Positions 10,685 through 41,222 of a DNA stretch of 47,033 nucleotides are shown one piece after another; the first letter of the stretch is position 1; every line of letters begins with the position of its first letter. Below the pieces are notes generated by a model, which was given only the letters and a program-made list of their open reading frames with translations, made no database searches and was not told the DNA's origin. A program made the position numbers and the translations under genes. Location of the stretch: NCBI GenBank assembly GCA_028824715.1, contig JAPPCV010000034.1:1-47033 (forward strand), read 5' to 3'. This DNA comes from Boseongicola sp. (GTDB taxonomy: Bacteria; Pseudomonadota; Alphaproteobacteria; Rhodobacterales; Rhodobacteraceae).

Positions 10685-10861
10685 TTAGACCATGATGGGA
10701 AGATTGACGAACTGCCCGTCGCCAGCACGGTAGTTGACGAGGTACGAGCGCAAACCGGACGGGTGAACGCGGACGCCGAAACCGATGAGCCTGTCGTCCC
10801 ATGCGATGTAGGGGCTGTCCCCGGGCTGGAGCGTGTCGACGGTCCGCGCCGTGAGCGTCAT
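10685..10861 (-). pseudogene. N-terminal stub of a tyrosine-type integrase (DUF4102-like)
   Basis: About 58 codons equal to the first part of a phage/island integrase. It reads TARTVDTLQPGDSPYIAWDD then RLIGFGVRVHPSGLRSYLVN and YRAGDG, closely parallel to the start of the full-length integrase at 32.5-33.8 kb (IAWDDRLTGFGVRIHPAG, FIVNYRAGDG). The match is also plain at DNA level, for example TGGGACGACAGGCTCA in both. After the YRAGDG box the similarity ends and a TAA follows, so the core-binding and catalytic domains are lost. It marks a former insertion of a related element next to the Mrr-type gene. Confidence 0.75.
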
Positions 10862-11757
10862 CCTGAGGCGCGGTGAGTTTCGCGGGCGGAACTGCTGAGT
10901 TGCCGGACATGCTCCTGTTGACACGGAATCGCAACCCAATGTCAACTCGCCGGGCGCAAGGGGTCGGACAGCACCCTGGAAGGGTCATGACGTTGAAACA
11001 TCCAGTTTGAACGCCGTTTGACATTCTTCACTTCCGCATCCAGGCTTGGTCATCCCCGAAATGTGTGGCGATCGAATGAGTTCGCGCGATTGACGCGCCA
11101 GAACCCGCGCCGGTCCGAGCACGATCACGTGAGACGAACTTGGCAAATGCCCCTTGAATCCTCATGTGCACGGGCAGGCCTTTCGCCCGCGGAGCGCGTC
11201 CTGCGCGACGGGGCCAGCGGCCGGTGAACGACGCAAGCGAGCGGCCGACCGTCCGCTCTTCGGGTTCCTGACACAGACCAGATGGCCGGCGCGTCCCTTG
11301 CGGGGATGCGGCGCCATGACCGAGAGACATCCGGGCATCGTCCTCCAGCCCGAAAGGGCAATCGACACGTTCTCCCCAATGCTGGGGGCGCGCGATTCCC
11401 GGCAGCGCCCTACAATCCGGTCCCGCGCCGACGACCCGGAGACGGCCGGGGATGCGCCGTGCGCGCACGCGGGAGGGTGCATGCCCATGCGGGAAGGTCC
11501 TGACGGAAGAGGCCGCGGGGTCCCGTGCCGGGACCGGCGAACGATCATCGGCATTGCGGCAGGCAGCGCGGCGCTGGGGAGCGTCCGGGAAAGACAGCTC
11601 CCGAGCCCGGACCGTCCTTCAAAGGAAGCAGAGCGGTTGCAGGCTGGCGGTCACGGGCCGTGTCGGCCTGCAGGGGCCTCGCCCGGCAAGGAACACACGC
11701 GTCCAGGAAGCTGTCCGGACCAGTTCCGGGCCGGCGATTCCGCGAAATCCGGCCAGC
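10862..11757. other. Non-coding stretch left of the invertible segment
   Basis: About 900 bases of very GC-rich DNA with no gene that I can support on either strand; open frames are arginine- and proline-rich shadows. It is the region into which the outward-facing TTGACA element of the invertible segment points in the present orientation, so no gene lies close enough to be driven by it now. Confidence 0.45.
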
Positions 11758-11795
11758 AATTGACTCCCGATAACTGTTGTTATCGGGAGTCAATT
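11758..11795. other. lox-like recombination site 1 (left), near-perfect palindrome
   Basis: A 38-bp sequence made of two perfect 17-bp inverted arms (AATTGACTCCCGATAAC and its reverse complement) around TGTT. Read as a loxP-type site (11760-11793), it has 13-bp arms TTGACTCCCGATA and TATCGGGAGTCAA and an 8-bp asymmetric spacer ACTGTTGT, the same 13-8-13 plan as phage P1 loxP. It lies about 275 bases beyond the stop codon of the Cre-like gene. Confidence 0.8.
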
Positions 11796-11801
11796 TGTCA
11801 A
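11796..11801 (-). promoter_or_regulatory. Outward-facing -35-like element beside lox-like site 1
   Basis: On the minus strand a consensus TTGACA lies directly against the inner edge of the left lox-like site and points out of the invertible segment. A second TTGACT occurs eight bases further on, inside the palindrome arm. The best -10 partner at 17 bases would be AACAGT, in the lox core, which is a weak match. If the segment inverted, this element would point into the giant surface-protein gene. Promoter activity is inference. Confidence 0.3.
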
Positions 11802-12070
11802 TGCCCGAAATCCCGCCGTCCCGGCTCTCCCCGGAATCCGGGCCGGGCCCCGCCGGAACCGACACCCCGTCGCAAATTTCTCCTTTCAGGCCGGGACGTT
11901 GGCTCTCCCGGACGGCGGCATCATGTACCGGGCCCGCGCTCCCGCCCGCGGCGGCGCACCGACAGCCGCAGCGCCATCCGGCCCTCGGCGGTGCCGACAG
12001 GCGGCGTCCTGTCGAACGCAAGAACACCCGCTCCCATCGGACAGAGGCCGGACGCCGTCCGCAGCGGACG

Positions 12071-13000
12071 TCAGCCGCGCTGCTGCCGGCGGGCGAGCTG
12101 CGCCGCCCCGCTGCGCGTCGCGAGGATGCGCTCGCCGTAACGGTTCACCATCGCCGGGGACTTCCACCGCCCGGCCTGCAGAATCGCCGCCATCCCGATC
12201 CCGGCCGCGACCATGTCCTGCGCCGCGCCGACCCGGGCGCTGTGCCCGGAGATGCGCTCCACGGTTTCCTCGGGCAGGCCCGCGCGCCTGGCCATGGCCT
12301 TGAAGATGCGCGGCACCTGGCTCGTGTCGAGACCGTCGCCGAGCGAGCCGCGGCACAGGGAGCGGAACACGCGGCCCTCGCCCACGCCGCCGCGCCGGAG
12401 CCACGTCCGGACCAGCGCCATGCTGTCGGGGGCGAGGTAGACGGTCTCGCCGCGGCCTTCCGGGTCGGCCTTGGACCGGCGCACCAGCACCGTCGCCGCG
12501 CCGCCCGTTTCCGCAACGATGTCAGAGACTTCGAGCGCCACCAGCTCGCTGCGCCGGAGCAGGGTGTCGTACGCCACGGCGAGCAGCGCGCGGTTGCGGT
12601 CGTCGATCAGCCGGTCGCCCGCGGCCTCCAGCATCCGCTGCCGGAGCGCGAAGGTCAGGCCCGTCGCCTGCTCCTGCCGCCGCCCCTTGCGGCGGTGCAT
12701 GCGCTGCAGCGCCAGGCGCACGGGCTCGGCCGTCCCGTTCCCGCCCGCGCCCGCCGCCCGTCCGGCCGCCGCGACGCTCGCCACGTAGCGGCGCACCGTC
12801 GCGGGCGCCCGGGTCTCCGACATGGATTCGACGAACGCCGCGACGGTTGCGGGGTCGTCCGGCAACGAAGGCCTGCCGCGCTCGGCGCACCAGCCCGCGA
12901 AGATGCGGAGGTCGGAGCGCCGGGCGCGCTCTGTGCTGGCGCTCAGCGCGCCGCGCGCGGCCTCCGCGCAGGCGTCGGGCGGCGGACAGTCGACAGTCAT
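12071..13000 (-). CDS. Cre-like tyrosine site-specific recombinase
   Basis: A 309-residue tyrosine recombinase that resembles phage P1 Cre more than XerC/D or island integrases. Residues 20-105 form an N-terminal core-binding region (IFAGWCAERGRPSLP resembles the W-x-x-WC-x-x-x-NR region of Cre). Catalytic residues are R149 in AYDTLLRRSEL (Cre AYNTLLRIAEI), K177 in VRRSKAD, H253 and R256 in SGHSARVGAA (the same ten residues as in Cre), W279 in QAGRWKS and Y288 in VNRYGE. The spacings R to K (28), H to Y (35) and W to Y (9) equal those of Cre. The ATG at 13000 has GGAG nine bases upstream. Its start codon lies only about 35 bases from lox-like site 2, so its promoter must overlap the site or lie beyond it, which would tie its expression to orientation. 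Such enzymes cut with the tyrosine and exchange strands at lox spacers. Confidence 0.9.
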   Translation of the reverse strand: MTVDCPPPDACAEAARGALSASTERARRSDLRIFAGWCAERGRPSLPDDPATVAAFVESMSETRAPATVRRYVASVAAAGRAAGAGGNGTAEPVRLALQRMHRRKGRRQEQATGLTFALRQRMLEAAGDRLIDDRNRALLAVAYDTLLRRSELVALEVSDIVAETGGAATVLVRRSKADPEGRGETVYLAPDSMALVRTWLRRGGVGEGRVFRSLCRGSLGDGLDTSQVPRIFKAMARRAGLPEETVERISGHSARVGAAQDMVAAGIGMAAILQAGRWKSPAMVNRYGERILATRSGAAQLARRQQRG

Positions 13001-13033
13001 CGTGAAGTCTCCGGGAGCTGAAACGTGCCCGAC

Positions 13034-13072
13034 ATCTGACTCTCGATAACAACAGTTATCGCGAATCGAATT
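13034..13072. other. lox-like recombination site 2 (right), inverted relative to site 1
   Basis: An imperfect palindrome with core CGATAAC-AACA-GTTATCG. As a 34-bp loxP-type site (13036-13069) it has arms CTGACTCTCGATA and TATCGCGAATCGA and spacer ACAACAGT. Compared by eye with the reverse complement of site 1, the spacer matches 8 of 8 and the arms 21 of 26 (five mismatches, three of them in the outer arm). It lies between the start of the recombinase gene and the start of the giant surface-protein gene. Confidence 0.75.
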
Positions 13073-13166
13073 CCGGGCACGCGGAGAGGCGGATCGTCGT
13101 CAGGAAGCGTTCGGGCCCGAGGTGGGAAATGCAGTCATTTGCCACGCGCCGAGAACAGGGAGTGCG

Positions 13167-16100
13167 ATGCGTTTCACGTCACTTGCGCCTGACGATGCAC
13201 TGGCGGGGGTCGGGCAGGACCTCGGGGATTGCCTGAGGCCGGCTTCCCCGCCTGAACCGTCCCTGCTGCGCGCCCGGCCGGGCGCGAGGCCGCGAAAGCC
13301 TGCCCCCGGAGGCGCCACGCGCGGAGGGCGTTCATCGCACTGCACCCGGCCCGCGCGTCCCGGCGCCTCGGACGGCGGCGGGCGCCAGGCCCACCCGATA
13401 GGCTCCTTCGCCCACCGCGTCGCAGCGCCACTCCTGCTTGCTTTCATCGCACTGTCCGCCCTGGTCGCACCGGCCGCGGCCCAGACCACGCCGAAAATTT
13501 CCGGGGTGGCGATCCCGTTCGGGCCCGCCGAGGGCCAGAACGACAGCTACAAGATCGGCGATGCCATCCAGGCGACGGCGGTCTTCAGTGAGCCGGTGGA
13601 CGTGACCGGCACGCCGACGCTCACGATCAACGTCGGGGGCACGTCGAAGACGCTGAGCTACAGCTCGGGCACAGGCTCGATTAGTCTGATGTTCACCGGC
13701 TACACGGTGGCGGAGGGGGATGAAGACACCGACGGGATCTCGATCGACGCGGACTCGGTCGATCTCAACGGCGGCACGATCAAGGCGAGCGACAACGCCG
13801 AGAACGCGGACCTGAGACATTCCGGGGCGGCCGCCGATGCGGACCGCAAGGTGGACGGGGTGAGGCCGCGGATGGTCGGCAGTTTTGTGCATGGCACTTT
13901 TGGACCCTTGACGTGGTCGGAGGACCTGGATCCTCTTTCGGTACCCCCGACCTCGGCGTTCTCGTGGACCGTCAGCTTGGGTACGGCGCCTACGATGGAC
14001 CAAGTCTGGATAAGTTCCGACAACTCTATATCGTTTTTTCTGTCGGGGTCGGTCGAACCCGAAGCTCATGCCCAGCTCAGTTACACACCTCCGACGGCGA
14101 TAGAGGCGACGCCCATCAAGGACTTGGCGGGCAACGCCGCGGCGGCGTTCACGGGCAGGACGATAGCCAACGTATTTCAGCAGCCCGACAGCGTGACAGG
14201 CGTGACGGTCACGCCCGGAGCGGGGAGCCTGACGGTGTCGTGGAACGCGGTGAAGCGGGTCGACGCCTACGAAATCTATTGGAAGAGCGGCAGCGAGGAA
14301 TTCGTGTACACCAGAGAAGAGCGGTACGCATTCGTCTCGGGCGGCAACACGACCACCTACACGATCACGAATCTGACGCCCGGAACGACCTACACACTGG
14401 TCATGCGCGCGTTCCGGACTTACGCTCTTGTCAATGGCTCGGTCGAAGTGACCGGCACGCCGCTCAACGCGGCGGTCTCGACGGTTGCGCTCACCTCCGA
14501 CCCGGGCGCCGACGGTACCTACGTCGAGGGGGATACCATCGAGGCCACGGTGACCTTCAACGGTCCGGTGGACATCGCCGGCGGCAACCCGCAACTGGAG
14601 ATCCCTGTCGGCGCCTCGCACAAAGCCTTCGAGTGCGGCGCCGGCACCGCGGTGACGAAGATTGTGTGCAGCTACACGGTGGCGGCGAACGACTACGACC
14701 ACGACGGCGTGGAGATTTTCGCGAACAGGATTTTCGCGAACAGGCTGTCGCTGAACGGCGCCACCATCCGTCTCGCCGGCACGGAGCACGACGCCGTCCT
14801 GACCCACGCCGCCGTGGCGGCGGATGCGGGCCACAAGGTGGACACGCTTTACCCGATACAACTGCTCGGTGCTCCTGCCTCTATCGCGCAAACCGGGTTG
14901 TCAGTTGGCTTGTATTTCAACGAGACGATTAGTGTGATGACGCCCCCGCTGGGCGCGTTCACGGTGCACGTTGACTCGGTGTCTCGCGAAGTCACCTCCA
15001 TTGAAGTGGACGACGTAAACGTCCTTCTCACCCTGGCCTCCGCCGTGGCGCACGGCGAGACGGTGACGGTGAGCTACGCCGATCCCTCGGAGGATAATGA
15101 CCCGAGGGCGTTGCAGGACCTTGCCGGCAATGACGTGCCCTCGTTCACCGGCCAGTCGGTGCTCAACCATGTGCCGGCGATCGCTCTCAGGGTACCCGAT
15201 GCGCCGGCCCAGCCGGCGCTCAGAGTGACGGGCCCGCGGACCATCGAGGTGGACTGGGACACGCCGGCAAACAACGGCATCGACGTCTCCGGCTACAAAG
15301 TCCAGATCTCGCCGGACGGCATCGTGTGGACAGAGCTGGTGGCTAATACGTTCTCGACGGAGACGTTCTACCGCGACGAGACCGTGCATCCCGGGTCGAA
15401 GCGCTACTACCGGGTCTCGGCCCGCAACAGTGATGGCTGGAGTGCGTTTTCGCCCTCGGCGAGCGCGCAGACGTGGAGTGCGGCGTGGATCTCGCAGGCG
15501 CCGGCGAGCGTGGCGGAAGGCGAGGAGATCGTGATCAAGGTGACGCAGACCCGCGGGTCGCGGCCGGTGCCTAGGTTTCGCGCAATCGGAGCGGTGCGGA
15601 TCAGCGACAGCGGCGGGGTGCTCGGGCATGTCCCGCTGGAACATCGCCTCAACGGTGTCTATTGGATGAACTTCGACGGGGACCACGGGACGGTCCGGCT
15701 GCCGACGCGGGCCAACGGCCGGGTCGGCGAAGGCGGCACGGTGACGCTGACGCTTCGTTCCGTTGATGAGGATGTGCTCGTCGGGTTCCGGCGGGCGGAG
15801 CCGTACACGGTGACGGTGACGGTGACCGACAAGGAGTCGCCGGGCCTTCGGGTGGAGGACGCGGAGGCGAACGAGGCCGACGGCACGATGGACTTCCGTG
15901 TGCGCCTCGAGGGGGAGTACAGCGACCCCGTCACGGTGGATTACGCGACCGCCGACCGCACGGCCAGGGAGGGATCGGACTACACCGCGACGAGCGACAC
16001 CCTGACCTTCGCGGCGGGGGAAACGGTGAAGACGGTGTCGGTGCCGATCCTCGCGGACTCGGTGGCCGATGACGGCGAGCGGTTCGCGCTGACGCTCACC

Positions 16101-19100
16101 GGCTCCTCGGGCGCGCAGATCATCGACGGCGAGGGGCTGGGGACGATCCGGGACACGTCCTCGCCCACTGACGGTCCGCTGACCCGGCTCATGCTGGTGG
16201 ACGCCGCATCGGGAACCAACCTCGGGACGATCGTGACCGGGACGACGTTGACCCTGCCGGACCCGCAGGGGAGCTACCGCATCGAGGCCGCGACCTCGGC
16301 GGGCGCCACTATCGGCAGAGTGCGATTCGCGCTTCGTGGTCCGAAGAGCGCATTGCGCGAAGACTACGAGGCGCCCTATGAGCTGTTCCCCGGGTCCGGC
16401 CAGACGCTGCCGCCGGGGTTTTACGGTCTCTTTGTGGAGGCACACCCGACAGAAGGAGACCAGAGCGATCTGCTGCAGTCGTTCCAGGTGCACTTCAACG
16501 TCCCGGAGAGCCAGGTGGCGGCGGGCGATGCACTGAGCGGGCTCACGCTTACGAACAAGTCCATCGGCGGCGTGAGCATGATCGGGGACGGCGAAGGCGA
16601 GGACGGGACCGTGTTCGCGCGGACCGAGGGCCACCGCTTCGAGCTCGCAGCGGTGGTGGCCGACGCGGACGTGCTGGGCAGCGTGCACCTCGAGTTGGTT
16701 AGGTTGGGAAAGGCGGCGGCGACGCGCACCGACAACGACGCCCCCTACGAGCTGTTCGGCGGCGCCGGCAAGGCATTGCGTGCGGGGCACTACACGGTCC
16801 AGGCCATCGCCTACGGCAACGCCGACCGCGGCGGCTCGGTGCTGCAGATACTGAGCCGGTCGTTCACCCTGGGCGCGCTGACCGCGTCGTTCGAGCAGGC
16901 GCCTGAAGACCACGAGGGCAACGCCTTTACGGTCCGGCTGCGGTTCAGCGAGGCGGTGCCGTTGAGCGATGCAGGGCTCGAGGCGGCGCTGTCGGTGACG
17001 GGCGGGACGGTGACGTCGGTGCGCCGGGTGGACGGGAGCGCGGCGCTGCGCGAAATCCGCGTCAAGCCGGCGGACAACGTGACGGAGGTGACGCTGTCGC
17101 TTGCGGCGACAACGGACTGCTCGGCGTGGCGCGCGGTGTGCATGCGCGACGGGCTCATGCTCTCGAGTGAGGTGTCGCACACGGTACCGGCGGCCATCAC
17201 CGTGTCGGTGGCCGATGCGGCGGGGACCGAGGGCGGCACGGCGGACTTCGTGGTGAGTCTGAACAAGGCGTCGGACGGCACGGTGACGGTGGACTACGAG
17301 ACGGTGGACTACAAGGACTCCGACGCCGCGACGAAAGGCGCCGACTACACGGCGGTGAGCGACACGCTGACCTTCGCGGCGGGCGTGACGGAGAAGACGG
17401 TGTCGGTGGCGCTGACGGCCGAGGATCCTGCCGAGGCCGACGACGGGGAGGTATTCTGGCTGGTGCTGTCGAACGCGTCGGGGGCGCGGCTGGGGGAGCA
17501 CAAACTAGGGATCGGGGGCGAGGCCGTCGGTGGTTACGACTATCCGGGGATAGCGCGCGGCACCATCCGCGAGCCGCCCGCGCCGTCGGCGCTGTCGGTG
17601 TATGGCCATGACGGCCGGGAGGGCTGGTCGGTGCTGAGGTTCGGGGTGGTGCTGGCGCCGGCGTCGACCGGGACGGTGACGGTGGCCTACGCGACCGAGG
17701 GCGGCACGGCGACGGAGGGAGACGACTACGAGGGGAGGAGCGGGACGCTGAGCTTTGCGCCGGGGCAGACGCTGAAGCTGGTGGATGTGCCGGTTATCGA
17801 CGACGCGGTGGAGGACAGCGGGGAGACGGTCACGCTGAAGCTGAGCGGGCCGAGCGGGGCGACGCTGGCGATTGCGGCAGACACGGCGACGATTCTGAAT
17901 CACGAGGCGCCGGCGCTGTCGGTGGCGCCGGCGCAGGGGCTGGAATCCGACGGCGCGCTCGTCTTCGAGGTGACGCTCGACCGGGCGGCGTCGGAGACGG
18001 TGACGGTGTCCTACGCGACGCTCGACGGCACGGCGCGGGCGGGCGAGGACTATGCGGCGAAGGAGGGGGTGCTCGAGTTTCTGGCGGGGGAGACGGAGCA
18101 GACGGTGACGGTGACGGTGACGGCCGACGAGGTGGCCGAAGGCGATGAGACGCTGACCCTGGTGCTGACGGATGCGTCGGGAGCGGGGATTGCCGGGGCG
18201 GCGGCGACGGGGACGATACGGGAGGCGGCGGCGAACGCGGCGCCGGAGGGGCTCCCGGTGGTGTCGGGCACGGCGCGGGTGGGCGAGGTGCTGGCGGCGT
18301 CGGTGGACGGCGTCGCGGATGCGGACGGGCTCACGGGCGCGACCTTCGCCTGGCAGTGGGTGTCGAACGACGGCACGTCGGACACGGCCATCGAGGACGC
18401 CGTCGAGGCGACCTACACGCCGGTGGCGGCGGATGTGGGCAGGACGCTGAAGGTGCGGGTGACGTTCACCGACGACGGGGGGACGGAGGAGACGCTCGCG
18501 AGCGCGGCAACGGCGCCGGTGGCGGCGGCGCTGCCGGAGATTGCGGTGCGGGCGGTCGCGGGCCATGTGGCCGAGGGCGCGGCGGCGGTGTTCGCGCTGT
18601 CGCGCACGGGCGATGTGTCCGATGCGCTGACGGTGGACATCGAGGTGACGGCCGAGGGGGTGACGCTCGACGGCGAGGCGCCTTCGCAGGCGTCGTTCAA
18701 AGCCGGGGCGCGCACGGTCGAGGCAAGCCTTGCCACGGTCGACGATACCGCCCCCGGGGCGGACGGCACGGTGGCGCTGCGGGTTGCGGCGGGGCCGGGA
18801 TACCAGGTGGCGGGGTCAGGGGCCGAGGCCACGGTGACGGTGCTCGACGACGACGCGGCGCCGGCCGCGGCGGCGGCGGAGGTGACCCTGTGGTCGGCGA
18901 CGATGACGGTGGTGGAGTACACGGCGGAGTCCATCGGCGCGGACAGCGCGAGCCTGTTCTCGAACCAGGGCGGCACGGCGGGTCTGGAGGGGCGGGCGCT
19001 GTGGTACCACGCACCCACGCGCAAGCTCCTCTTCAAGCTCACCTGGCTGCTTCCCGACGAGACGGGCATGGTGCTGCATGTGGGCGATATGGCGCTTGCC

Positions 19101-22100
19101 GTGCCGGTGGGGCGGGCCGGGAAGGAGAGCGCGAGCTGGACCGGTGTCGATGTCGACTGGACCGACGGCGAGCAGGTCGAGGTGCGGCTCACGACGCCAT
19201 CGGCGGAGGCGGTGGCGAGCGATGCGTCGCTGACCTCGCTCGCGCTCGGCGGCGCCACGCTGAGCCCGGCCTTCGACGCGGACACGCTGGTCTATGCGGC
19301 GTCGGTCGGGTCGGCAGTGGAGAGCGTGATGGTAACGGCGGCGGCGCGCGGCGGCGATGCCGTGGTGGCGTTCGAGCCTGAGGACGCGGACGGCGGGGCG
19401 CCGGGGCACCAGGTGGCGCTCGGAGTGGGCGAGACCCTTGTGACGGCGCGGGTGATGGCGGCCGACGGGGACACGGTGCGGTCCTACCGGGTGGTGGTGA
19501 CGCGCGCCGAGGCGCTGACGGTGGCCTTCGGGGCGTCGTCCTACACGGCGACCGAAGGCGGCGCGGCGGCGCAAGTCGCCGTCAGCCTGAGCGCAGATCC
19601 AGAGAGCGCAGTGACCATCGCGCTGGTGGCGACACCCGCTGGCGGCGCGGAAGCCTCCGACTACACAGCGCCTGCGAGCGTGACGTTCACACCAGGCGAG
19701 ACGCTCACGCAGATCGTCGAGGTGTCGGCGCTCGCCGACGAGGTGACAGAGACGGGCGAGAGCGTGGCGCTCTCGTTCGGGGATCTGCCCGACGGCGTGG
19801 TGGCCGGGACGACGGCGAGTGCCACGGTGATGCTCGAGGATGCGGATACGAGCCCGGTCGTTGCGACGCTCTCGGTGGGCGACGCAGCCGCGCAAGCGGG
19901 CCGGTTCCAGGTGAAGGCGGCGTTCGCCGAGGCTGTGACCGGGCTCGGGGCGGAGGGTTTCGCTGCGCTGCGCGTGGGCGGCGACGCCGCTTCGGTGTCG
20001 GATCTCGCGGAGGCGGAGACCGGCCGTGCGTGGACGGCCTGGGTGGCGGCGGAGGAGGCCGGGCGATACGTGGTGCGGCTTGGCGCCGGCGCCGCGCAAT
20101 CCGGCCAGCGCGAGAGCGCGCGAGCGGTGCTGGTCGTCGACGTGGACGCGGAAGGCAATGCGGTGGCGGTCGCAGGCCCGGCCGTCAGCGCAGTGACGGT
20201 GACTCCACCGGATTCGGGCGCGTGGTCGGCAGGAAGCAATGTACGGGTGACGCTCCGGTTCACCGAGACGGTGACGGTCGACACGACGGGCGGCACGCCC
20301 ACGGTGGGGATCGCGGTGGGCGGCAATGCGCGCCAGGCCGCGTATGCGTCGGGTTCGGGGTCGAATGCGCTGGTGTTCGCCTACCGTGTGACGGCGGATG
20401 ACGGCGCGGTGAGCGCGGTGACGGTGACGGCGTCGAGCCTCGGTCTGGGCGGCGGGACGATCGTCGACGGCGCGGGGCGCGCTGCGGACCTCGCCCACCC
20501 GGGCGCCGAGCACACGCTCGACCTTCCGGAGGAGCAAACGCCGCTGACGGCCGCGTTCTCGAAGCTGCCTCAGACGCACAGCGGCGCGAACACGACGCTC
20601 TCGCTGCAGCTCGACTTCAGCGAAGAGTTCCCGCTGAGCTACACCGTGCTCCAGGGCACGGTCGGCAATGCCGGAGCGCTCACGGTGAGCGGCGGGACGC
20701 TCAAGCGCGTGCTGCGCGTCACGAAGGGCAGCAACCGGCAATGGACGGTGCGCATCGCGCCGGCCGGCAACGGTCCGGTGACGGTGACGCTGCCGGCGAC
20801 CAGCGACTGCACGGCGACGCTTGCGATCTGCACCGCCGATCAGCGGGCGCTCGCAAGCGCGGTGACGGCAACGGTCGCAGGACCAGCAGTGACGGATACG
20901 GACGCGAACGCGCTGACCGCGGCGTTCCAGGAGGTCCCGGACGCGCACGGCGGACCGGACTCGGGCGGCTTCACCTTCCAGGTGCTGTTCAGCGAGGCGA
21001 TCCCGACGAGCTATGTCGTGCTGCGCGAACAGGGGGCTTTTGCCGTCGCGGGCGGCTCGGTGGAGAGGGCCACGCGGGTGAAAGACGAGAACGGTATCGG
21101 CCGCGACGACCTGCGCGAGATCCACATCGCGCCCTCGGGCTGGGATGCGGTGAGCGTCACGCTCCCGGCGACGACGAGCTGCGCGGCCACCGGCGCGATC
21201 TGCATGGATGACGGGCGCATGCTGTCGAACACCCAGACGGCGACCATCGAGGGACCGGTCGCCATCGACGTTGCGGACGCGACGGTGACGGAAGGCCCGG
21301 GCGTGACGCTCGACTTCGTGGTGAGCCTCTCGCGCGCTTCGGACGCGACGGTGACGGTGGACTACGCGACCGCCGACGGCGCCGCGACGGAGGGCGACGA
21401 CTACACCCGGACCGAGGGAACCCTCACCTTCGAGGCGGGGCAGACCGCGAAGACGGTGTCGGTTCCGGTGCTCGACGACGCGCATGACGATGACGGGGAG
21501 ACGATGACGCTCCTGCTCTCGAACCCCGTGGGCGCGCGGATCCGCGACGGCGAGGCCACGGGCACGATCCGCAATTCCGACGCGATGCCGCAGGCGTGGC
21601 TCGCGCGGTTCGGGCGCACGGTGGCGGAGCAGTCCGTCGACGCGATCCGCGAGCGGATGTCCGCGGACCGCACGCCCGGATTCCGGGGGCGGCTCGCCGG
21701 CGAGGCGCTGCCGGACGGGACGGGAACGGGCGGCGCGGCGGGCACGGCGGACACCGAGGGAACGGCGGACGATCCCTTCGCGATCCGGGAGTTCACGGAG
21801 AGCGAGCGCCTCGCCTTCCTGGCGCTGCTCGCGCCCGCAATCGGCGAGGATGGCGACGACGGGGAGGACGGCGGTGCGGAAAGCCGCGCCGCGTCGGCGG
21901 AGGAGGCCATGCTCGACACCGCCTTCGAGATCGCGAGGGAGACCGACGGCGGGCTCTCGCTCGGCCTCTGGGGCCGGGCGGCAAGGTCCGGCTTCTCCGG
22001 GCGCGAGGGCGGCCTGGAGCTCGACGGCGACGCGACGACCGCCATGCTCGGCACCGACTGGACGCGGCGTGACGCGCTCTTCGGCCTCATGCTCTTCCGC

Positions 22101-23156
22101 AGCCGCGGCGAGGGCGGCTACGCCGGCCCGGCGGGCGAGGGACGCATCGAGGCGGACCTTGCGGGCCTCGTCCCCTGGGCGGGACGTCGCAAGGACGGCG
22201 CGCCCACGCTCTGGGGCGCGGCCGGGACCGGACGGGGCGGGATGACGCTGACGCCCGGGGGGCAGGACCCGGTCGATGCTGGGCTCCGCTGGTCCATGGC
22301 GGCGGCGGGCGCGGAGGGCGCGCCCGTGACGCTCGCGGCGCTCGGCGGCGCGAGCCTCCGCTGGCGCGCGGACGCGCTCATGACGCGAACGGACTCGGAG
22401 GCCGCGGACGGCCTCGCGGCGACCTCGGCGGAGACGGCCCGCCTGCGCCTCGGGCTGGAGGCGGCCTGGGAGCGCACGCTGGCTTCGGGGGCGACGCTGG
22501 CCCCGCGCGTGGAGGTCGGCCTCCGCCATGACGGCGGCGACGCCGGGACCGGATTCGGCATCGAGGCCGGCGGCGGGGTCCGGTTCGCGGATCCCGGGCA
22601 TGGCCTTACCGTGTCCGTCGACGGACGCGCGCTGGCGCTGCACGAGGACCGGGACCTGAAGGACTGGGGGCTGGCGGTCTCGCTTGAATGGGACCCGCGC
22701 CCCGAGACGCGGCTCGGGCCTTCGGTCATCGCGACGCGTGGCTGGGGCGACGCGCCCGCGGGGGGCGTGGCGGCGCTTTTCGAGCCGGAGGCGATTCCCG
22801 GCGCCGACGACGCGTCGGGCGGCGGGTCCGGGAGCCTGGGCCTGGAGATGGCCTGGGGGACGGACCTCTCCGGCTGGCGTCGCGGCATGACGGGCAGCGC
22901 CTACGGGCGGGTCTCGGGAAGCCCGGACGCGGAGGACCTCCGTCTCGGCTGGCGCATCGCGCCGGACACGGGGTTCCCGACCGGCCCCGGCCACGACTTC
23001 TGGCTCGACCCCGGCCTGGGCGAAGGGGCCGGGATCGGGGCGGGCCTCAAGTGGTCGGCGGACCGGCGGCACGTGCGGTCCTCGACGGGGATCGACCTCG
23101 GCGCGAGCGAGGAGGACGGCCTCGAGGCCGGGTTCCGGCTGACACGGGAATGGTAG
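13167..23156 (+). CDS. Giant autotransporter-like surface protein with Calx-beta, FN3 and Ig-like repeats
   Basis: About 3,330 residues. A hydrophobic segment (VAAPLLLAFIALSALVAPAAA, split here as VAAPLLLAFIALSALV and APAAA) near residue 85-105 acts as signal peptide after a long Arg-rich lead. The passenger begins with two SwmB-like units (13.5-14.2 and 14.5-15.2 kb), each followed by an FN3 domain (14.2-14.45, 15.2-15.5 kb). Calx-beta repeats follow at about 15.83, 17.2, 17.6, 17.9, 19.5 and 21.25 kb, marked by TVDYATADGTA-like and DYT-x-x-x-x-TLTFAAGET-like blocks. Between them are Ig-like and cadherin-like sandwiches. WLARFGRTVAEQSVDAIRERM, split as WLARFGRTVAEQ and SVDAIRERM, leads into a C-terminal beta-barrel (about 21.95-23.15 kb) ending in W, typical of outer-membrane barrels. 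Calx-beta and FN3 surface proteins usually mediate adhesion and bind calcium. The ATG at 13167 has AGGGAG upstream; a GTG at 13122 is an alternative. Confidence 0.88.
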   Translation: MRFTSLAPDDALAGVGQDLGDCLRPASPPEPSLLRARPGARPRKPAPGGATRGGRSSHCTRPARPGASDGGGRQAHPIGSFAHRVAAPLLLAFIALSALVAPAAAQTTPKISGVAIPFGPAEGQNDSYKIGDAIQATAVFSEPVDVTGTPTLTINVGGTSKTLSYSSGTGSISLMFTGYTVAEGDEDTDGISIDADSVDLNGGTIKASDNAENADLRHSGAAADADRKVDGVRPRMVGSFVHGTFGPLTWSEDLDPLSVPPTSAFSWTVSLGTAPTMDQVWISSDNSISFFLSGSVEPEAHAQLSYTPPTAIEATPIKDLAGNAAAAFTGRTIANVFQQPDSVTGVTVTPGAGSLTVSWNAVKRVDAYEIYWKSGSEEFVYTREERYAFVSGGNTTTYTITNLTPGTTYTLVMRAFRTYALVNGSVEVTGTPLNAAVSTVALTSDPGADGTYVEGDTIEATVTFNGPVDIAGGNPQLEIPVGASHKAFECGAGTAVTKIVCSYTVAANDYDHDGVEIFANRIFANRLSLNGATIRLAGTEHDAVLTHAAVAADAGHKVDTLYPIQLLGAPASIAQTGLSVGLYFNETISVMTPPLGAFTVHVDSVSREVTSIEVDDVNVLLTLASAVAHGETVTVSYADPSEDNDPRALQDLAGNDVPSFTGQSVLNHVPAIALRVPDAPAQPALRVTGPRTIEVDWDTPANNGIDVSGYKVQISPDGIVWTELVANTFSTETFYRDETVHPGSKRYYRVSARNSDGWSAFSPSASAQTWSAAWISQAPASVAEGEEIVIKVTQTRGSRPVPRFRAIGAVRISDSGGVLGHVPLEHRLNGVYWMNFDGDHGTVRLPTRANGRVGEGGTVTLTLRSVDEDVLVGFRRAEPYTVTVTVTDKESPGLRVEDAEANEADGTMDFRVRLEGEYSDPVTVDYATADRTAREGSDYTATSDTLTFAAGETVKTVSVPILADSVADDGERFALTLTGSSGAQIIDGEGLGTIRDTSSPTDGPLTRLMLVDAASGTNLGTIVTGTTLTLPDPQGSYRIEAATSAGATIGRVRFALRGPKSALREDYEAPYELFPGSGQTLPPGFYGLFVEAHPTEGDQSDLLQSFQVHFNVPESQVAAGDALSGLTLTNKSIGGVSMIGDGEGEDGTVFARTEGHRFELAAVVADADVLGSVHLELVRLGKAAATRTDNDAPYELFGGAGKALRAGHYTVQAIAYGNADRGGSVLQILSRSFTLGALTASFEQAPEDHEGNAFTVRLRFSEAVPLSDAGLEAALSVTGGTVTSVRRVDGSAALREIRVKPADNVTEVTLSLAATTDCSAWRAVCMRDGLMLSSEVSHTVPAAITVSVADAAGTEGGTADFVVSLNKASDGTVTVDYETVDYKDSDAATKGADYTAVSDTLTFAAGVTEKTVSVALTAEDPAEADDGEVFWLVLSNASGARLGEHKLGIGGEAVGGYDYPGIARGTIREPPAPSALSVYGHDGREGWSVLRFGVVLAPASTGTVTVAYATEGGTATEGDDYEGRSGTLSFAPGQTLKLVDVPVIDDAVEDSGETVTLKLSGPSGATLAIAADTATILNHEAPALSVAPAQGLESDGALVFEVTLDRAASETVTVSYATLDGTARAGEDYAAKEGVLEFLAGETEQTVTVTVTADEVAEGDETLTLVLTDASGAGIAGAAATGTIREAAANAAPEGLPVVSGTARVGEVLAASVDGVADADGLTGATFAWQWVSNDGTSDTAIEDAVEATYTPVAADVGRTLKVRVTFTDDGGTEETLASAATAPVAAALPEIAVRAVAGHVAEGAAAVFALSRTGDVSDALTVDIEVTAEGVTLDGEAPSQASFKAGARTVEASLATVDDTAPGADGTVALRVAAGPGYQVAGSGAEATVTVLDDDAAPAAAAAEVTLWSATMTVVEYTAESIGADSASLFSNQGGTAGLEGRALWYHAPTRKLLFKLTWLLPDETGMVLHVGDMALAVPVGRAGKESASWTGVDVDWTDGEQVEVRLTTPSAEAVASDASLTSLALGGATLSPAFDADTLVYAASVGSAVESVMVTAAARGGDAVVAFEPEDADGGAPGHQVALGVGETLVTARVMAADGDTVRSYRVVVTRAEALTVAFGASSYTATEGGAAAQVAVSLSADPESAVTIALVATPAGGAEASDYTAPASVTFTPGETLTQIVEVSALADEVTETGESVALSFGDLPDGVVAGTTASATVMLEDADTSPVVATLSVGDAAAQAGRFQVKAAFAEAVTGLGAEGFAALRVGGDAASVSDLAEAETGRAWTAWVAAEEAGRYVVRLGAGAAQSGQRESARAVLVVDVDAEGNAVAVAGPAVSAVTVTPPDSGAWSAGSNVRVTLRFTETVTVDTTGGTPTVGIAVGGNARQAAYASGSGSNALVFAYRVTADDGAVSAVTVTASSLGLGGGTIVDGAGRAADLAHPGAEHTLDLPEEQTPLTAAFSKLPQTHSGANTTLSLQLDFSEEFPLSYTVLQGTVGNAGALTVSGGTLKRVLRVTKGSNRQWTVRIAPAGNGPVTVTLPATSDCTATLAICTADQRALASAVTATVAGPAVTDTDANALTAAFQEVPDAHGGPDSGGFTFQVLFSEAIPTSYVVLREQGAFAVAGGSVERATRVKDENGIGRDDLREIHIAPSGWDAVSVTLPATTSCAATGAICMDDGRMLSNTQTATIEGPVAIDVADATVTEGPGVTLDFVVSLSRASDATVTVDYATADGAATEGDDYTRTEGTLTFEAGQTAKTVSVPVLDDAHDDDGETMTLLLSNPVGARIRDGEATGTIRNSDAMPQAWLARFGRTVAEQSVDAIRERMSADRTPGFRGRLAGEALPDGTGTGGAAGTADTEGTADDPFAIREFTESERLAFLALLAPAIGEDGDDGEDGGAESRAASAEEAMLDTAFEIARETDGGLSLGLWGRAARSGFSGREGGLELDGDATTAMLGTDWTRRDALFGLMLFRSRGEGGYAGPAGEGRIEADLAGLVPWAGRRKDGAPTLWGAAGTGRGGMTLTPGGQDPVDAGLRWSMAAAGAEGAPVTLAALGGASLRWRADALMTRTDSEAADGLAATSAETARLRLGLEAAWERTLASGATLAPRVEVGLRHDGGDAGTGFGIEAGGGVRFADPGHGLTVSVDGRALALHEDRDLKDWGLAVSLEWDPRPETRLGPSVIATRGWGDAPAGGVAALFEPEAIPGADDASGGGSGSLGLEMAWGTDLSGWRRGMTGSAYGRVSGSPDAEDLRLGWRIAPDTGFPTGPGHDFWLDPGLGEGAGIGAGLKWSADRRHVRSSTGIDLGASEEDGLEAGFRLTREW

Positions 23157-28721: not shown

Positions 28722-30893
28722 CTATTCGTTGCCAGCGGGGTCAGGCGGATCGCCTTCGGCGTGAGTGTCTTCCTGAATAGACTGTTCCCAGTCTGGAGCA
28801 ATTGCCGACCAGTCAGGAGCGATGCCTTCTCGCCGAAGCCAGGTTGCCCAAAACGCGGGATCATCTGAACGCGGTCGCTGTGTTTTCTTCAGGTCACGTA
28901 CGCGGACCAATGCGGGCGTCGGGACAGCCCAGCCTAGTAGAATGGCCTGTTGCGAAGGGAGCGTCGGTAGCTCCGCCAGAAGCCCGCCTAGTGCGTCCGG
29001 GACAAGCCGCCTAACGAGATTTTGATCGATATCGTTGACAATGCGGTGAAGCAGAAAGGAATTGCACTGCGCCAGGACGGTAGGGGACAATTCTGAAGGT
29101 CGTTGCGAGGCCAGCATCAGCCCGAGCCCGAATTTGCGTCCTTCTCTTGCGATACGTTCGAATGTCTGCCGGCACAAATGGGCCGCCTGCGCGCTTGCTC
29201 CGACATCTGCATCCTTGCGCACGAAGTTATGTGCTTCCTCAAGCACCAGCACTGTGGGAAGCGCGCTACCGTTGGACTTAAGGTGGCGCTGAAGAGCTTC
29301 AAAGACGAGGCGAGATATAACGGCAACCGCGATGTGAACGACATCCGAGGGTACCAAAGACAGATCCAGTATGACCAATGGCTCCGGACTTTCCTCGCCG
29401 GGTCCAAGTAGATTGGTCAACCAGTCACTGAGCGATTCGGCTCCATCGGTGTCAATGACAGGTCGCAGTCCTGCGTCTCCAAGCATAACCTGGATGCGAT
29501 TGATCAGTGGTTCGACATTGTTGAGGGCCTGTCCGCCGGTTGCAGTCGCGACTTCATGAATTCGGTCGGGAAGTGTGTCTATATCAAATCGGACGGGCGC
29601 ATCTTCGCTGACTTCGCCGTGCGTAGTCGCTAGCGGAAAAGAGTCAGTGATGGAGCGGAGCTCCGCAAGGACCGCATGCAAGTCACCCGGCTGAAAGTCG
29701 TTGTAGCCAGAGGATTTGGCAGTGGTATATTGGCGGGCGGAGCGAATTTGATCCACGGGCGTGCGCATTGCCGCAACCGCAGCAGTAAAGTCAGCGGTAT
29801 CCGCGCCGTAGGTCGCAAGTGCATCTTCATCCAATTCACTCAAGCTAACAAGCCCTTCGAGGAACGAACCGAATTCGAGGTTGCGAGGGAATCCCGCCAC
29901 ACTTTGCGGCAGATCGGAATATAGTTGTTCGACCCTATGCAGATAGCCGAGATAACGCCTGACGGCCTGCGTTTTCGCAGTAGTAGGCGTCGACCCTGCA
30001 TTACGTAGCTGCCGCAAAGCGCGCAGCAACAGCGGGCGCTGTACTCCGGGCTGGGCCGAGGTGAAGGCTGCCCATTCCTGACCATTCCAAAGCCAGCCCG
30101 GCACGGTGAGACGCTTTGCTCCGTCGGTTCCGTTTACCGCGTAACGGCGAACTGGGAGTTTCTCATCTCCGAAGGCCGCAGGGTATTCGCCGTTGGGGTC
30201 GAGAATGATGAATCGCGTGTTCGCCGGCGTGCTGGCAGGGTGGCCATCCGAAGGCTCGGGCTCTCTTGCTAGTTGTGCCGCTACAGCTTCCAGCGACCAT
30301 CGAATAATCCCCGCAACCGAACAAGACTTCCCGCTGCCCGTGTTTCCCAAGATCGCCACGTGCCGACCGAACAATTTGTCAGGATGAACCCATACTCGGG
30401 CGTTTCCCGCAAAGGGCGCAGTGCCAATTTGTACCAGTCGTTCATCGCTATTCGCCTCGACAATTGATCGCAGCTGATGTTCGCTCGGCAGGAGGACAGG
30501 GTCACCTACCGAAGGCAGTACAGGTACTCCGCGCTCCAGTGCAAAATGCGGTAGGCCGCTGGCTTCCTTTCCTTCATGTAGTAAAGTACCGACTGGGATG
30601 GTGACAATTGTTCTCGAAGGGAACGGTAGGTCGACAAGAGCGTCATCGTGACGGCGTTGCGATGGGGGTTTGGCGCGCGCGATGAAAATTGCACTTACTA
30701 CCGCTACGACGGCACCGGTTTCATTAGGAATCAGGACATAGGCATTGACACGGGGAAATCCGGTCGGAACGCCAGTATTGAGAGTGGTAGCTTGAGGCGT
30801 CTCATCGAACAGCGAAATTCGAATCTCTTCAGCCGTGACTGCTTCTACCCGACCTATGGAAAGAGTGCCAATACGTTCGACAATGGTCGTCAT
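28722..30893 (-). CDS. HerA-like ATPase of a SIR2-HerA defence pair
   Basis: A 723-residue HerA/DUF87-type ATPase. An N-terminal beta-rich region (residues 1-165) resembles the HAS-barrel. Walker A is GNTGSGKS at 183-190, followed by FIILDPNGEY at 228-237, a block typical of HerA/FtsK-like pumps. Walker B is VLVLEEAHNF at 548-557, then ASQRPSELSP with the sensor segment and RIVNDIDQNLVRRLVPD, split as RIVNDIDQNL and VRRLVPD. HerA proteins form hexameric DNA translocases; paired with SIR2 they assemble into large complexes that deplete NAD+ and can process DNA during phage infection. Its ATG overlaps the stop of the SIR2 gene by four bases (ATGA), so the two are one operon, SIR2 first. Length and motifs look intact. 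Confidence 0.9.
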   Translation of the reverse strand: MTTIVERIGTLSIGRVEAVTAEEIRISLFDETPQATTLNTGVPTGFPRVNAYVLIPNETGAVVAVVSAIFIARAKPPSQRRHDDALVDLPFPSRTIVTIPVGTLLHEGKEASGLPHFALERGVPVLPSVGDPVLLPSEHQLRSIVEANSDERLVQIGTAPFAGNARVWVHPDKLFGRHVAILGNTGSGKSCSVAGIIRWSLEAVAAQLAREPEPSDGHPASTPANTRFIILDPNGEYPAAFGDEKLPVRRYAVNGTDGAKRLTVPGWLWNGQEWAAFTSAQPGVQRPLLLRALRQLRNAGSTPTTAKTQAVRRYLGYLHRVEQLYSDLPQSVAGFPRNLEFGSFLEGLVSLSELDEDALATYGADTADFTAAVAAMRTPVDQIRSARQYTTAKSSGYNDFQPGDLHAVLAELRSITDSFPLATTHGEVSEDAPVRFDIDTLPDRIHEVATATGGQALNNVEPLINRIQVMLGDAGLRPVIDTDGAESLSDWLTNLLGPGEESPEPLVILDLSLVPSDVVHIAVAVISRLVFEALQRHLKSNGSALPTVLVLEEAHNFVRKDADVGASAQAAHLCRQTFERIAREGRKFGLGLMLASQRPSELSPTVLAQCNSFLLHRIVNDIDQNLVRRLVPDALGGLLAELPTLPSQQAILLGWAVPTPALVRVRDLKKTQRPRSDDPAFWATWLRREGIAPDWSAIAPDWEQSIQEDTHAEGDPPDPAGNE

Positions 30894-32173
30894 GTCGCGC
30901 CGTTTCCATCGACCGAAGTCTTGGCGGCAATGGTGCTGCGGCGGTCTAGCAGTTCACTCATGCGGATTGTGAGTGGATCGATTGCCGGTTTGGGGAGGTA
31001 GTGTTCGACAAGTTGGCAGATATCGCCGAAATGCTTACCGATGAAGAGAGACAACTGCTGAGGTCGGCCGACATGCCCTACGAATGACGCAATGCGGTCG
31101 TGTGGCTTGGCACCCCAGGCCGCAATCACAAGGTGGGTAGAAGGAATCGTCAGCATGTCGGAGATAACGCGATTGACATGGTCATCGCCGAAGCCATAGC
31201 CGTAGGTGACAAGCACATGGTTTGGCTGGCATACTGTCGATGAAAAGTCACGAAAGAGGTCCGCATAGGGATATGCGCCGGTCTCGACGTCTTTGGCCGC
31301 GTTCGGATAGATCATTACCGACTGAATTGGATTGGTGGGGACGGCCGGATGCGACTTGTCTGCACCAAAGGGCAGGCCTGTTCGAAACAGTCGTCGTTTC
31401 TCGTTGCGCCAGTCAAGCGAGCCGTGCAGCTTGGTCAGATGGACTAATCCTTCCAGGTGACGTGGCTCGGCTCGGCTCCCTGGCGGTGTGTAGTGCATGT
31501 CAATCTTCAGGCGGGAGGATCTGAATTCCGGTTCGATAGCGCCGACAAAACGGTCCATGATGCGCACGCCTGCGAGATCACACGCCTTTTCGATGAGACG
31601 GTCATAGTTGGTGGTAAATATGTGGAGACGCTCCCGCGAGGCAGCGCGACTGGCGAAGCTCATCAGGAATGAGACAAGAATTTCGCGCGCGAGTGGTCCA
31701 CCCGTCACGAGCGGAGTGTCCAGGCCGTCGTTGATGGCCTTTTCGGTTTCCAGTACATCCTTGATGAAGTCGTACAGAACAGTATCTATCGCGGATTCCC
31801 AGAGGCCCACATCCGAGTGCGCCAATATCTTGAGGCCGGACAGAAGGGAGAGGGCAGCAGAAATCCTGTCTTCAACATTTGCATCGCCGCGACCCATTTC
31901 TTTTGCGATCTTGACAGCGTGAGCCTCAACTTTGTCTTCGTTCGGGCAACCACCAAATCCACTTCCCATCATGCTCACCGCAGTACCGCCGGCACAGTTC
32001 GCAACGCCGGTAGTGAAACCATTCCCGACAAGCAACGAAAGGTGCTCAGCTTGGAAAACGGCTGAAAGCCAAGGTTCTATCCGCTTGCGAAGCGCCAGCG
32101 TTTCCTTTTCTGGATCGCCGGGAGTGTCTGTCTCTCCACTAATGTGGAGGATGTGGTCATGATTCCAATTCAT
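30890..32173 (-). CDS. SIR2-domain NADase of a SIR2-HerA defence pair
   Basis: A 427-residue SIR2-family protein. The nucleotide-binding start is HLSLLVGNGFTTG at 44-56, with GNGF in place of the usual GAGAS. The catalytic region has IFTTNYDRLIEKA at 185-197 (asparagine and aspartate conserved) and LTKLHGSLDW at 246-255 with catalytic H250. HVLVTYGYGFGDDHVNRVI closes the domain with the G-x-S/G-F-x-D-x-H-x-N pattern of defence SIR2 proteins. Such proteins hydrolyse NAD+ when triggered by phage, stopping the infection with the cell. The ATG at 32173 has only GAAG upstream, a weak site. It is the first gene of the operon with HerA and lies close to the island integrase, so the pair probably travelled with that element. 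Confidence 0.9.
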   Translation of the reverse strand: MNWNHDHILHISGETDTPGDPEKETLALRKRIEPWLSAVFQAEHLSLLVGNGFTTGVANCAGGTAVSMMGSGFGGCPNEDKVEAHAVKIAKEMGRGDANVEDRISAALSLLSGLKILAHSDVGLWESAIDTVLYDFIKDVLETEKAINDGLDTPLVTGGPLAREILVSFLMSFASRAASRERLHIFTTNYDRLIEKACDLAGVRIMDRFVGAIEPEFRSSRLKIDMHYTPPGSRAEPRHLEGLVHLTKLHGSLDWRNEKRRLFRTGLPFGADKSHPAVPTNPIQSVMIYPNAAKDVETGAYPYADLFRDFSSTVCQPNHVLVTYGYGFGDDHVNRVISDMLTIPSTHLVIAAWGAKPHDRIASFVGHVGRPQQLSLFIGKHFGDICQLVEHYLPKPAIDPLTIRMSELLDRRSTIAAKTSVDGNGAT

Positions 32174-33817: not shown

Positions 33818-34008
33818 GGCGGGTTCATGGCACGGAATGGCGAAAACGTCAACACATGCGTCAACACCAGAAGAGCAACCGTGGGCCATTCCTGGAACGG
33901 CAAGTCCCTCAAGCGGAACTGAGGGAGTTTGCGTAAGTAATTGAGATATAGTCTCTATGTCCCAATTTGGGGCGGGAGAGCCATGTGTGTCCAAGCTGCA
34001 TCCGCGAG

Positions 34009-34053
34009 ACTCATAACCTGAAGGTCGTAGGTTCAAATCCTACCCCCGCAACC
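34009..34053 (+). tRNA. 3' half of initiator tRNA-fMet (CAT) as att site
   Basis: The sequence from the anticodon loop on is present: loop CTCATAA with anticodon CAT, CCTGA, AGGTC, T-arm GTAGG-TTCAAAT-CCTAC, acceptor CCCCGCA, then A and CCA. The acceptor ending in A72 fits the C1-A72 mismatch of bacterial initiator tRNAs. The 5' side (CGAGA before the loop) does not pair and no acceptor or D-arm lies upstream, so this is a remnant, not a working gene. It is the type of attR left when an element enters the 3' end of a tRNA gene; on this reading the element lies to its left and the intact gene beyond. Confidence 0.75.
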
Positions 34054-40552: not shown

Positions 40553-41222
40553 AAGTGCCGGAATCCATCGCTTCGGCTGAAAGACCTGTGTTCGCGCACA
40601 GGGAAGTTCGCTGCATTCGGTGGCCGCGATGCGCGTCAGCGGGGCATGGGTTGGCTGGCTGGATGGAAGCCACATGATTTCGGGGATCGTTCGTGAAGTT
40701 ACCCGTGCTTCAGCAACTCGGCGAGCGCTTTGACAGACTTGGTGTCTTTCGGCGCGGGGAACGCCCCGATTTCAAGAGCCCGACTCCCAAGAGTCTCGTA
40801 TTGTGCCGACCTTCGGTGGAGGGCAGATGCACGTCCACCATCTGGATAGTGCCAAACCCCTCGATGATGGCGCGCAGGCATCTGCATGCGTTTACAAACG
40901 GGCAATTGGATGAAACTTGTCAAATTGTAAATCCAGTGTTACAGGGAGCGGACGGTTCTGCAACCCGATCGGCGGGGCAGGGCGCAAGAGACACTGCAGA
41001 CGGGAGTTCAGTGCTCTCCGGGGCCTCTCGCTCGCAACCGCAGGGGAGGACTGGCACAGCCGTATCGAAGCCGCGAGGTGAGACCATGATCGAAATTCGG
41101 GCGGGCATGAGGTCGTGCAGGTCGGCAATGCTGCAACCCTGCCGACCTGCGAGCTGCAAGGGACATCCTCGCATCCTGCCGGGTTCGGTCCGCAATCCCT
41201 CAACCAGCGCAGGAGTGGCTTG
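40553..41222. other. Gene-poor stretch; possible minus-strand gene scrap
   Basis: About 670 bases. A small hairpin (CCTGTG-TTCGCG-CACAGG, 40585-40602) lies just after the glutamine-synthetase-like stop. On the minus strand near 40699-40870 two frames carry plausible protein-like text (GFGTIQMVDVHLPSTEG, then YETLGSRALEIGAFPAPKD) that would join through a frameshift, as in a decayed gene. I do not recognise it. Confidence 0.35.

Follow-up and report, generated by a model that had tools for sequence, protein, structure and literature searches.

A Cre-family recombinase gene enclosed by inverted lox-like sites next to a giant surface-protein gene in Boseongicola sp.: a likely invertible promoter cassette

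In the flagellar phase switch of Salmonella, the gene for the recombinase Hin is located within its own invertible segment (PMC5903667). Hin is a serine recombinase (PMC11868660), and its segment has an outward promoter at one end. Invertible promoters for cell-surface genes are also found in the RecV switches of C. difficile and in the invertons of Bacteroides; the tyrosine recombinase RecV operates more than one switch and the serine recombinase Mpi many scattered regions (PMC5903667). In UPEC, the tyrosine recombinase IpuA inverts ipuS, a promoter element that controls the autotransporter UpaE and lies adjacent to the recombinase gene (PMC6083910). Cre itself is familiar chiefly from phages, plasmids and laboratory use; phages and plasmids have also yielded Cre-like enzymes with 13-8-13 sites (PMC4957104). 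Thus, both tyrosine-recombinase invertible promoters for surface proteins and Cre-like 13-8-13 enzymes have been described already, while their combination was not seen in the literature that we searched.

Here, we analyzed a stretch of 47,033 nucleotides from Boseongicola sp., referred to as the window. The window is an entire contig of 47 kb from an assembly of 181 contigs and 5.24 Mb, and the label chromosomal given to the locus by a first-pass annotation is therefore unsupported. Like the H segment, the locus has a recombinase gene within the segment and, as we propose, an outward promoter at one end, but it has a Cre-family tyrosine recombinase and 13-8-13 sites where Hin has hix sites and a Fis enhancer. 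With Cre/loxP, VCre, SCre, Dre, Nigri/nox and Panto/pox it shares the fold, the catalytic residues and a 34-bp 13-8-13 site near the gene. In contrast to Cre/loxP, however, two native inverted sites surround the gene, one end is promoter-like and a surface gene is adjacent; identity to P1 Cre is only about 30%. The ipuS/IpuA system is similar in uniting a tyrosine recombinase, a promoter element and a surface protein, but ipuS measures 260 bp, its repeats are 7 bp long, and the recombinase gene lies outside it except for the coding end, which contains one of the repeats (PMC6083910). In contrast to RecV and Mpi, one recombinase is found per segment. That such a cassette is not a standard annotated system had already been remarked in the first-pass annotation; in the open-licence literature searched, no Cre-like recombinase inverting its own cassette was found, which is not proof of absence.

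The recombinase gene (12071-13000, minus strand) is an ORF of 309 amino acids with an ATG start, and it was the sole match at E ≤ 0.001 in the 5.24-Mb assembly. Its product is a Cre-family tyrosine recombinase. The complete catalytic set is there (R149, E152, K177, H253, R256, W279 and Y288), at the Cre positions, together with the motif SGHSARVGAA. In an alignment with 17 relatives, R149, E152, R256, W279 and Y288 were invariant, and K177 and H253 almost so. The top sequence match in the PDB was Cre (E 3.4e-24), and Cre or Tre made up 17 of the 18 rows of the phmmer output. The predicted structure (pLDDT 82.8, pTM 0.63) was compared by Foldseek, where Cre or Tre, a Cre derivative, took ranks 1-33 of the 50 listed (TMq 0.58-0.72), followed by XerA. 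Phage_integrase was the only Pfam match, so the serine recombinase of a Hin-type switch is lacking. With the XerC and XerD equivalog models it reached 44.0 and 32.9 bits, where 335 and 330 are required, and it thus does not qualify as a recombinase of XerCD/dif chromosome resolution. PADLOC gave no match for the recombinase. The claim of a Cre-like enzyme with its catalytic positions and motif was thus upheld by alignment, PDB search and Foldseek; activity and site binding are inferred from sequence alone.

Two lox-like sites of 34 bp, each with the 13-8-13 plan, flank the gene. The D site (11760-11793, plus strand) lies past the recombinase stop. Its arms are perfect, its core spans 11768-11785, and it is enclosed by a 38-bp inverted repeat at 11758-11795. 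The U site (13036-13069, minus strand) is located 5' of the recombinase start, ending about 40 bp ahead of it, and adjoins the surface gene; its core (13044-13061, minus strand) reads CGATA-ACTGTTGT-TATCG. The two 8-bp spacers are ACTGTTGT and its reverse complement, that is, the same asymmetric sequence in opposite orientation. These claims of the first-pass annotation therefore held, except that the second site is weaker than stated, with mismatches in 4 of its 13 arm pairs; even so, the pair qualifies as Cre-family sites. The segment between the cores (11786-13043; 1276 bp from core start to core start) is predicted to be invertible, on the basis of conserved inverted pairs and of one flipped relative described below. 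As a specificity control, the assembly was searched with a 30-bp motif derived from both sites. With up to 3 mismatches only these two places were found genome-wide, and the backward control gave none. When up to 2 mismatches were allowed in the 18-bp core, 2 extra genomic places appeared, no excess over its backward control (2).

Elsewhere on the contig, the neighbouring genes at 28722-32173 (minus strand) strongly match the PADLOC models of HerA and SIR2 (E 2e-251 and 1e-170) and look like a SIR2-HerA defence pair. The contig also holds several mobile-element genes, given a phage-type integrase (32525-34036, minus strand), a resolvase-domain protein (41115-42185, plus strand) and, by eye, an integrase N-terminal fragment (10685-10945, minus strand).

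Relatives of the recombinase were collected by a scan of GTDB genome contigs, which yielded 18 relatives at 36-77% identity, and more members were added by searches of related genomes. The gene was detected at E ≤ 1e-30 in 22 of 294 other genomes of the window's own family, none above 44% identity, and at E ≤ 1e-60 in three of eight genomes of its genus, namely those of the window, L032 and L034 (loci are numbered L, genomes G). Further searches gave 1 of 23 others in the family of G306, 4 of 13 others in the order of G302 and one new member among 385 in the class of G302; no new member was found among 27 in the order of G308 or in the orders of G303 and G304. No relative was found in the viral-contig scan, and plasmid relatives amounted to 1409 records, every one below 60% identity. 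In the tree, the window falls within a clade of 21 (support 99/96) with L028, L029 and L030 as its nearest neighbours, and P1 Cre is long-branched. Close recombinases are spread over scattered lineages and bins. Almost all of these relatives are metagenome assemblies in which chimeric contigs can occur, and bins labelled Chloroflexi, Bryobacterales and Immundisolibacterales may result from mis-binning. The titles of 8 of the 18 relatives carry jk18x bin names and one carries Spongia; jk18x names have been used for MAGs from Ircinia sponges (PMC9531527). At least 8 of the 17 pairs described next are in genomes with sponge-pointing names (jk18x bins, Spongia_Bin9).

An inverted pair of sites was present in 17 loci: the window, L029-L037, L077-L079, L088-L090 and L092. 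All pairs are inverted and lie within 1.5 kb. The pattern CGATA-N8-TATCG occurs 33 times in the 237,940 bases of these loci, against a mean of 0.05 in 200 resamples; only 2 of the 33 occurrences, both in L078, are not pair members. The pair encloses the recombinase gene in 15 of the 17 loci, and in this respect the arrangement is that of a Hin-type switch. It is inferred that the recombinase acts on the sites that enclose it. Relatives with absent or unpaired sites had been named as a possible refutation. The idea was not refuted, as 16 loci besides the window keep the inverted pair, around the gene in 14 and beside it in two. In these two (L079 and L092), the pair encloses a compact, invertible-looking segment of 334-355 bp (L079:4925-5297 and L092:3046-3397) that contains a TTGACA hexamer and no recombinase; the recombinase is about 117 bp away in L079 and 5.8 kb away in L092. 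Single sites remain in five loci (L028, L041, L044, L081 and L091; in L028, L041 and L081 a contig end is near). Two clade members, L038 and L039 (also L093 and L094), have no site, and SGHS is replaced by SAHS and SGNS, respectively, with the catalytic histidine lost in L039. These two recombinases may have been repurposed. As a side observation, both share a similar divergent neighbour gene that looks GAF-like by eye. Among outgroup and plasmid relatives, a single candidate core (CGATA/TATCG, 0-1 mismatch) lies near the recombinase start in L040 (5831), L045 (5850), L096 (2802) and L097 (2772), possibly an ancestral one-site state. In 24 more distant loci (L004-L027, flanks of about 1.5 kb) no perfect core was found.

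The spacers of these pairs change together. The central 6 bp are the same within 16 of the 17 pairs, yet vary between loci, giving five matched types; the exception is L030 (CTCTCG/CTGGCG). When partners were permuted, a mean of 4.35 matches was obtained and 16 was never reached in 100,000 permutations. Since the loci are related and a permutation ignores kinship, spacer changes were also counted by parsimony on the recombinase tree. This gave 8 changes for U, 8 for D and 8 jointly (7, 7 and 7 without L030), so that every spacer change affects both sites. Such agreement is predicted if strands are exchanged through the spacer. By position, pairs agree at base 1 in 7 of 17 loci, at bases 2-7 in 16-17 and at base 8 in 16. 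The Cre crossover is 6 bp long. Agreement at base 8 suggests a longer crossover; it exceeds what a 6-bp Cre-like overlap needs and is unexplained.

One end of the segment is promoter-like. At the inner edge of the D site, a TTGACA hexamer resembling a -35 element (11796-11801, minus strand) reads outward. It is followed after 17 nt by AACAGT (11773-11778, minus strand), within the D-site spacer, which matches TATAAT at 3 of 6 positions and is inferred to be a weak -10-like element. A simple sigma-70 promoter and terminator scan of 11300-13300 detected neither. The hexamer is conserved. In 17 of 20 loci, one inner end has TTGACA (at least 5/6) at a distance of exactly 10 nt from the core; this is the D end in 15 loci and the U-labelled end of the small segments in 2 (L079, L092). 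The three misfits have it one base further (L029), as a 5/6 match one base nearer (L030) or as a 4/6 match (L044). As a comparison, the same place was inspected at the other ends: it was absent from all outer sides (0/17 U, 0/20 D), and of the U inner ends only those of L079 and L092 had it (2/17). A -10-like hexamer 17 bases past TTGACA, within the spacer, is weak and mostly reads nACAGT or nACAGC. Because the segments of L079 and L092 keep TTGACA without a recombinase, the promoter-like end is their common denominator with the other loci. We infer that the D end is an outward promoter directed at the flank; its -10 element is weak and its activity is deduced from the sequence.

On the other side of the window's pair lies the presumed target, a giant surface-protein gene (13122-23156, plus strand; 3344 amino acids from a GTG start, with an ATG at 13167). 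Its product has Calx-beta, fn3 and cadherin-like domains, and in the present orientation the gene is divergent from the recombinase. A surface-type gene adjoins the pair in 16 of the 17 loci, recognized by domain in 12 and by its N-terminus, read by eye, in 4. The former are the window (Calx-beta, fn3), L030 (PPC, cadherin), L032, L034, L035, L036, L077 (RTX repeats), L078, L088 (choice-of-anchor R), L090, L092 and L031, where a small secreted-looking gene precedes a Calx-beta gene. The latter are L029, L033, L037 and L079. The neighbours in L029, L033 and L037 gave no match in the Pfam scan, that of L037 being cut and containing undetermined bases, and the neighbour in L079 rests on inspection alone, without a domain scan. 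The surface gene is followed by one for a surface-lipoprotein assembly modifier (SlipAM) in L033 and L079; the operon of L077 runs on to an ABC transporter, and by eye so does that of L030. The exception, L089, has a relaxase fragment at its U side and no surface gene. The TTGACA end points away from the surface gene in 15 of the 17 loci, including the window, and toward it in L032, L089 being without such a gene. The window orientation is therefore presumed to be OFF and the flipped one ON, which is inferred. The excess of one orientation may reflect a biased switch, selection or partly fossil loci.

A conserved, apparently noncoding block, element X (11317-11422, minus strand), lies on the flank away from the surface gene and served as an orientation landmark. 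A coding function was considered and set aside, as tblastx matches occurred in six frames with no frame favoured. A single Rfam match in 10900-13500 was far under its gathering score and was dismissed. A model of X, seeded with the window, L031, L032, L036 and L041, was run over 32 records, some of them overlapping. X was found past the D site in eight loci (window, L031, L036, L041, L077, L088, L089 and L090) and past the U site in two (L032 and L091); L077 and L088-L091 are independent finds. It points outward wherever found, with a weak partial match near the recombinase start in L092, and was detected in only 8 of the 17 paired loci. Past X, in the promoter direction, we observed related putative outer-membrane beta-barrel genes in L036 (8084-8941), L088 (180-776) and L089 (3746-4678). 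They might represent a second target, with scores below the curated cut-offs.

In L032, from the window's genus, the segment is flipped relative to its flanks. X is on the U side, and a surface lipoprotein gene with a TbpB-like domain lies past the TTGACA end and not past the U end. Half-sites were compared by a log-likelihood-ratio score, for which 7 related loci served as training set (8 on the D side). The outer half-sites of L032 were swapped (logLR U -7.2, D +12.0), whereas the inner halves were not (U +15.5, D -19.8). In leave-one-out controls, 7 of 7 loci scored with their own class, weakly so on the outer side for L033 (D -0.9) and L089 (U +1.7). As the outer halves are exchanged and the inner ones are not, the breakpoint lies in or next to the spacer. 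The pattern is the footprint of an inversion inside the spacer; it is seen across species and no within-strain inversion data stand behind it. L091, with X on the U side, was considered as a second clean inversion; it was rejected because it lacks a D site and its outer arm resembles that of an ordinary U site (+5.2).

Based on these observations, the window most probably harbours an invertible promoter cassette in the style of Hin, with the gene for its Cre-family recombinase inside. The recombinase family, the paired inverted sites, the joint change of spacers, TTGACA, the surface neighbour and one flipped relative are directly evident from the sequences. The enzyme would bind both 13-8-13 sites and exchange strands within the spacer, and with the sites in opposite orientation this would flip the 1.28-kb segment between them. 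TTGACA in the segment and the weak -10 in the site spacer would form an outward promoter at the D end. In the state seen in the window, this promoter would face away from the 3344-amino-acid surface gene (presumed OFF); after inversion it would be placed directly upstream of it (presumed ON). It is inferred that the promoter is active, that the ON and OFF labels are right, that a strain can switch back and forth and that the surface protein is phase-variable. A self-inverting cassette beside a surface gene, as the first-pass annotation had suggested, is thus supported by comparative evidence, while within-strain inversion and binding by the enzyme are unconfirmed. The conserved TTGACA at one end, the spacer co-evolution and the repeated presence of a surface gene next door had escaped that annotation, as had the flipped state of L032 and a third half-site, which most relatives have and which was not found in the window. 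The reading as a switch has to be taken with caution, as there are no within-strain inversion data, L032 alone is cleanly flipped and 15 of the 17 pairs are presumed OFF.

Among the alternatives, it is conceivable that the switch of the window is a fossil, with a dead enzyme or a dead weaker site and the promoter locked OFF. The four arm mismatches of the U site, the missing third half-site and the single state of most loci would fit, as would decayed members of the family: L091 without a D site, L044 without its N-terminal part and U site, and L038 and L039 with their altered motifs and lost sites. Against this, the ORF of the window is intact with a full catalytic set, the spacers are identical and the D site is a perfect palindrome. 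We consider it unlikely that the surface gene is a mere bystander and that the flip controls nothing but the recombinase gene itself or some gene on the X side. The U site is close enough to the recombinase start (about 40 bp) that binding could control the recombinase itself, and beta-barrel genes lie in the promoter direction in three loci, below cut-off and in L088 by resemblance only. However, no such gene is found beside the D site of the window or in the other loci looked at, surface-type genes adjoin 16 of 17 pairs, and the promoter end of L032 faces a lipoprotein gene. Still less probable is a small mobile element whose sites are ends or integration sites and mark insertion, not inversion. 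In its favour, a lone gene framed by inverted ends looks like an insertion sequence, the close recombinases are dispersed among lineages and bins, and plasmid relatives are common. Yet the flanks recur, with X at one end in 10 loci (8 D, 2 U) and a surface-type gene at the opposite end of 16 of 17 pairs, the paired spacers change together, a requirement of inversion, and L079 and L092 have a paired segment without a recombinase. A role in replicon dimer resolution, the function of loxP in P1, is the least probable: four relatives (L040, L045, L096 and L097) do have one candidate core near the gene start, but dimers are resolved between directly oriented sites on different copies, for which an inverted pair is of no use, and 17 of 17 pairs are inverted.

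Returning to the invertible cassette as the preferred reading, a bolder version can be formulated, which taken as a whole we consider less likely than not. According to it, these loci are a distinct family of self-flipping switches of the Cre clade that subject giant, eukaryotic-like surface proteins to phase variation, sponge symbionts being among the bacteria concerned; the spacer would double as the -10 element, and a third half-site would tune the direction or rate of switching. The first spacer base differs within 10 of the 17 pairs, as A versus G in nine. In all eight A/G pairs with a surface gene, A is on the surface-gene side, the ninth pair having no such gene. Under the bolder version, the ON junction would therefore read nACAGT and the OFF junction nACAGC. 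In 13 of the 17 loci examined for it, the third half-site (TATCG plus arm) stands alone between the recombinase stop and the D site, at a distance of 178-188 bp from the D core; it matches the arm of its own locus at 8-12 of 12 bases (for example, L031:5521-5532). It is located at 220 bp in L030, and L044 has TATCG at 175 bp with no clear arm match at that distance. It was not found in the window or in L029, and the small segments of L079 and L092 lack TATCG. The third half-site could be an accessory binding site, for which there are no binding data.

In summary, a Cre clade apparently serves, in its natural hosts, as a phase switch built like that of Hin. The loci also constitute a resource of natural recombinases, with central spacers of five matched types. 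In Ircinia microbiomes, the fn3, cadherin and Calx-beta classes are reported to be enriched, apart from two cadherin families, which are depleted (PMC9531527). Domains of these three classes occur in the presumed targets, and the cassettes offer a testable way into the question of how giant surface proteins might be varied by such bacteria.
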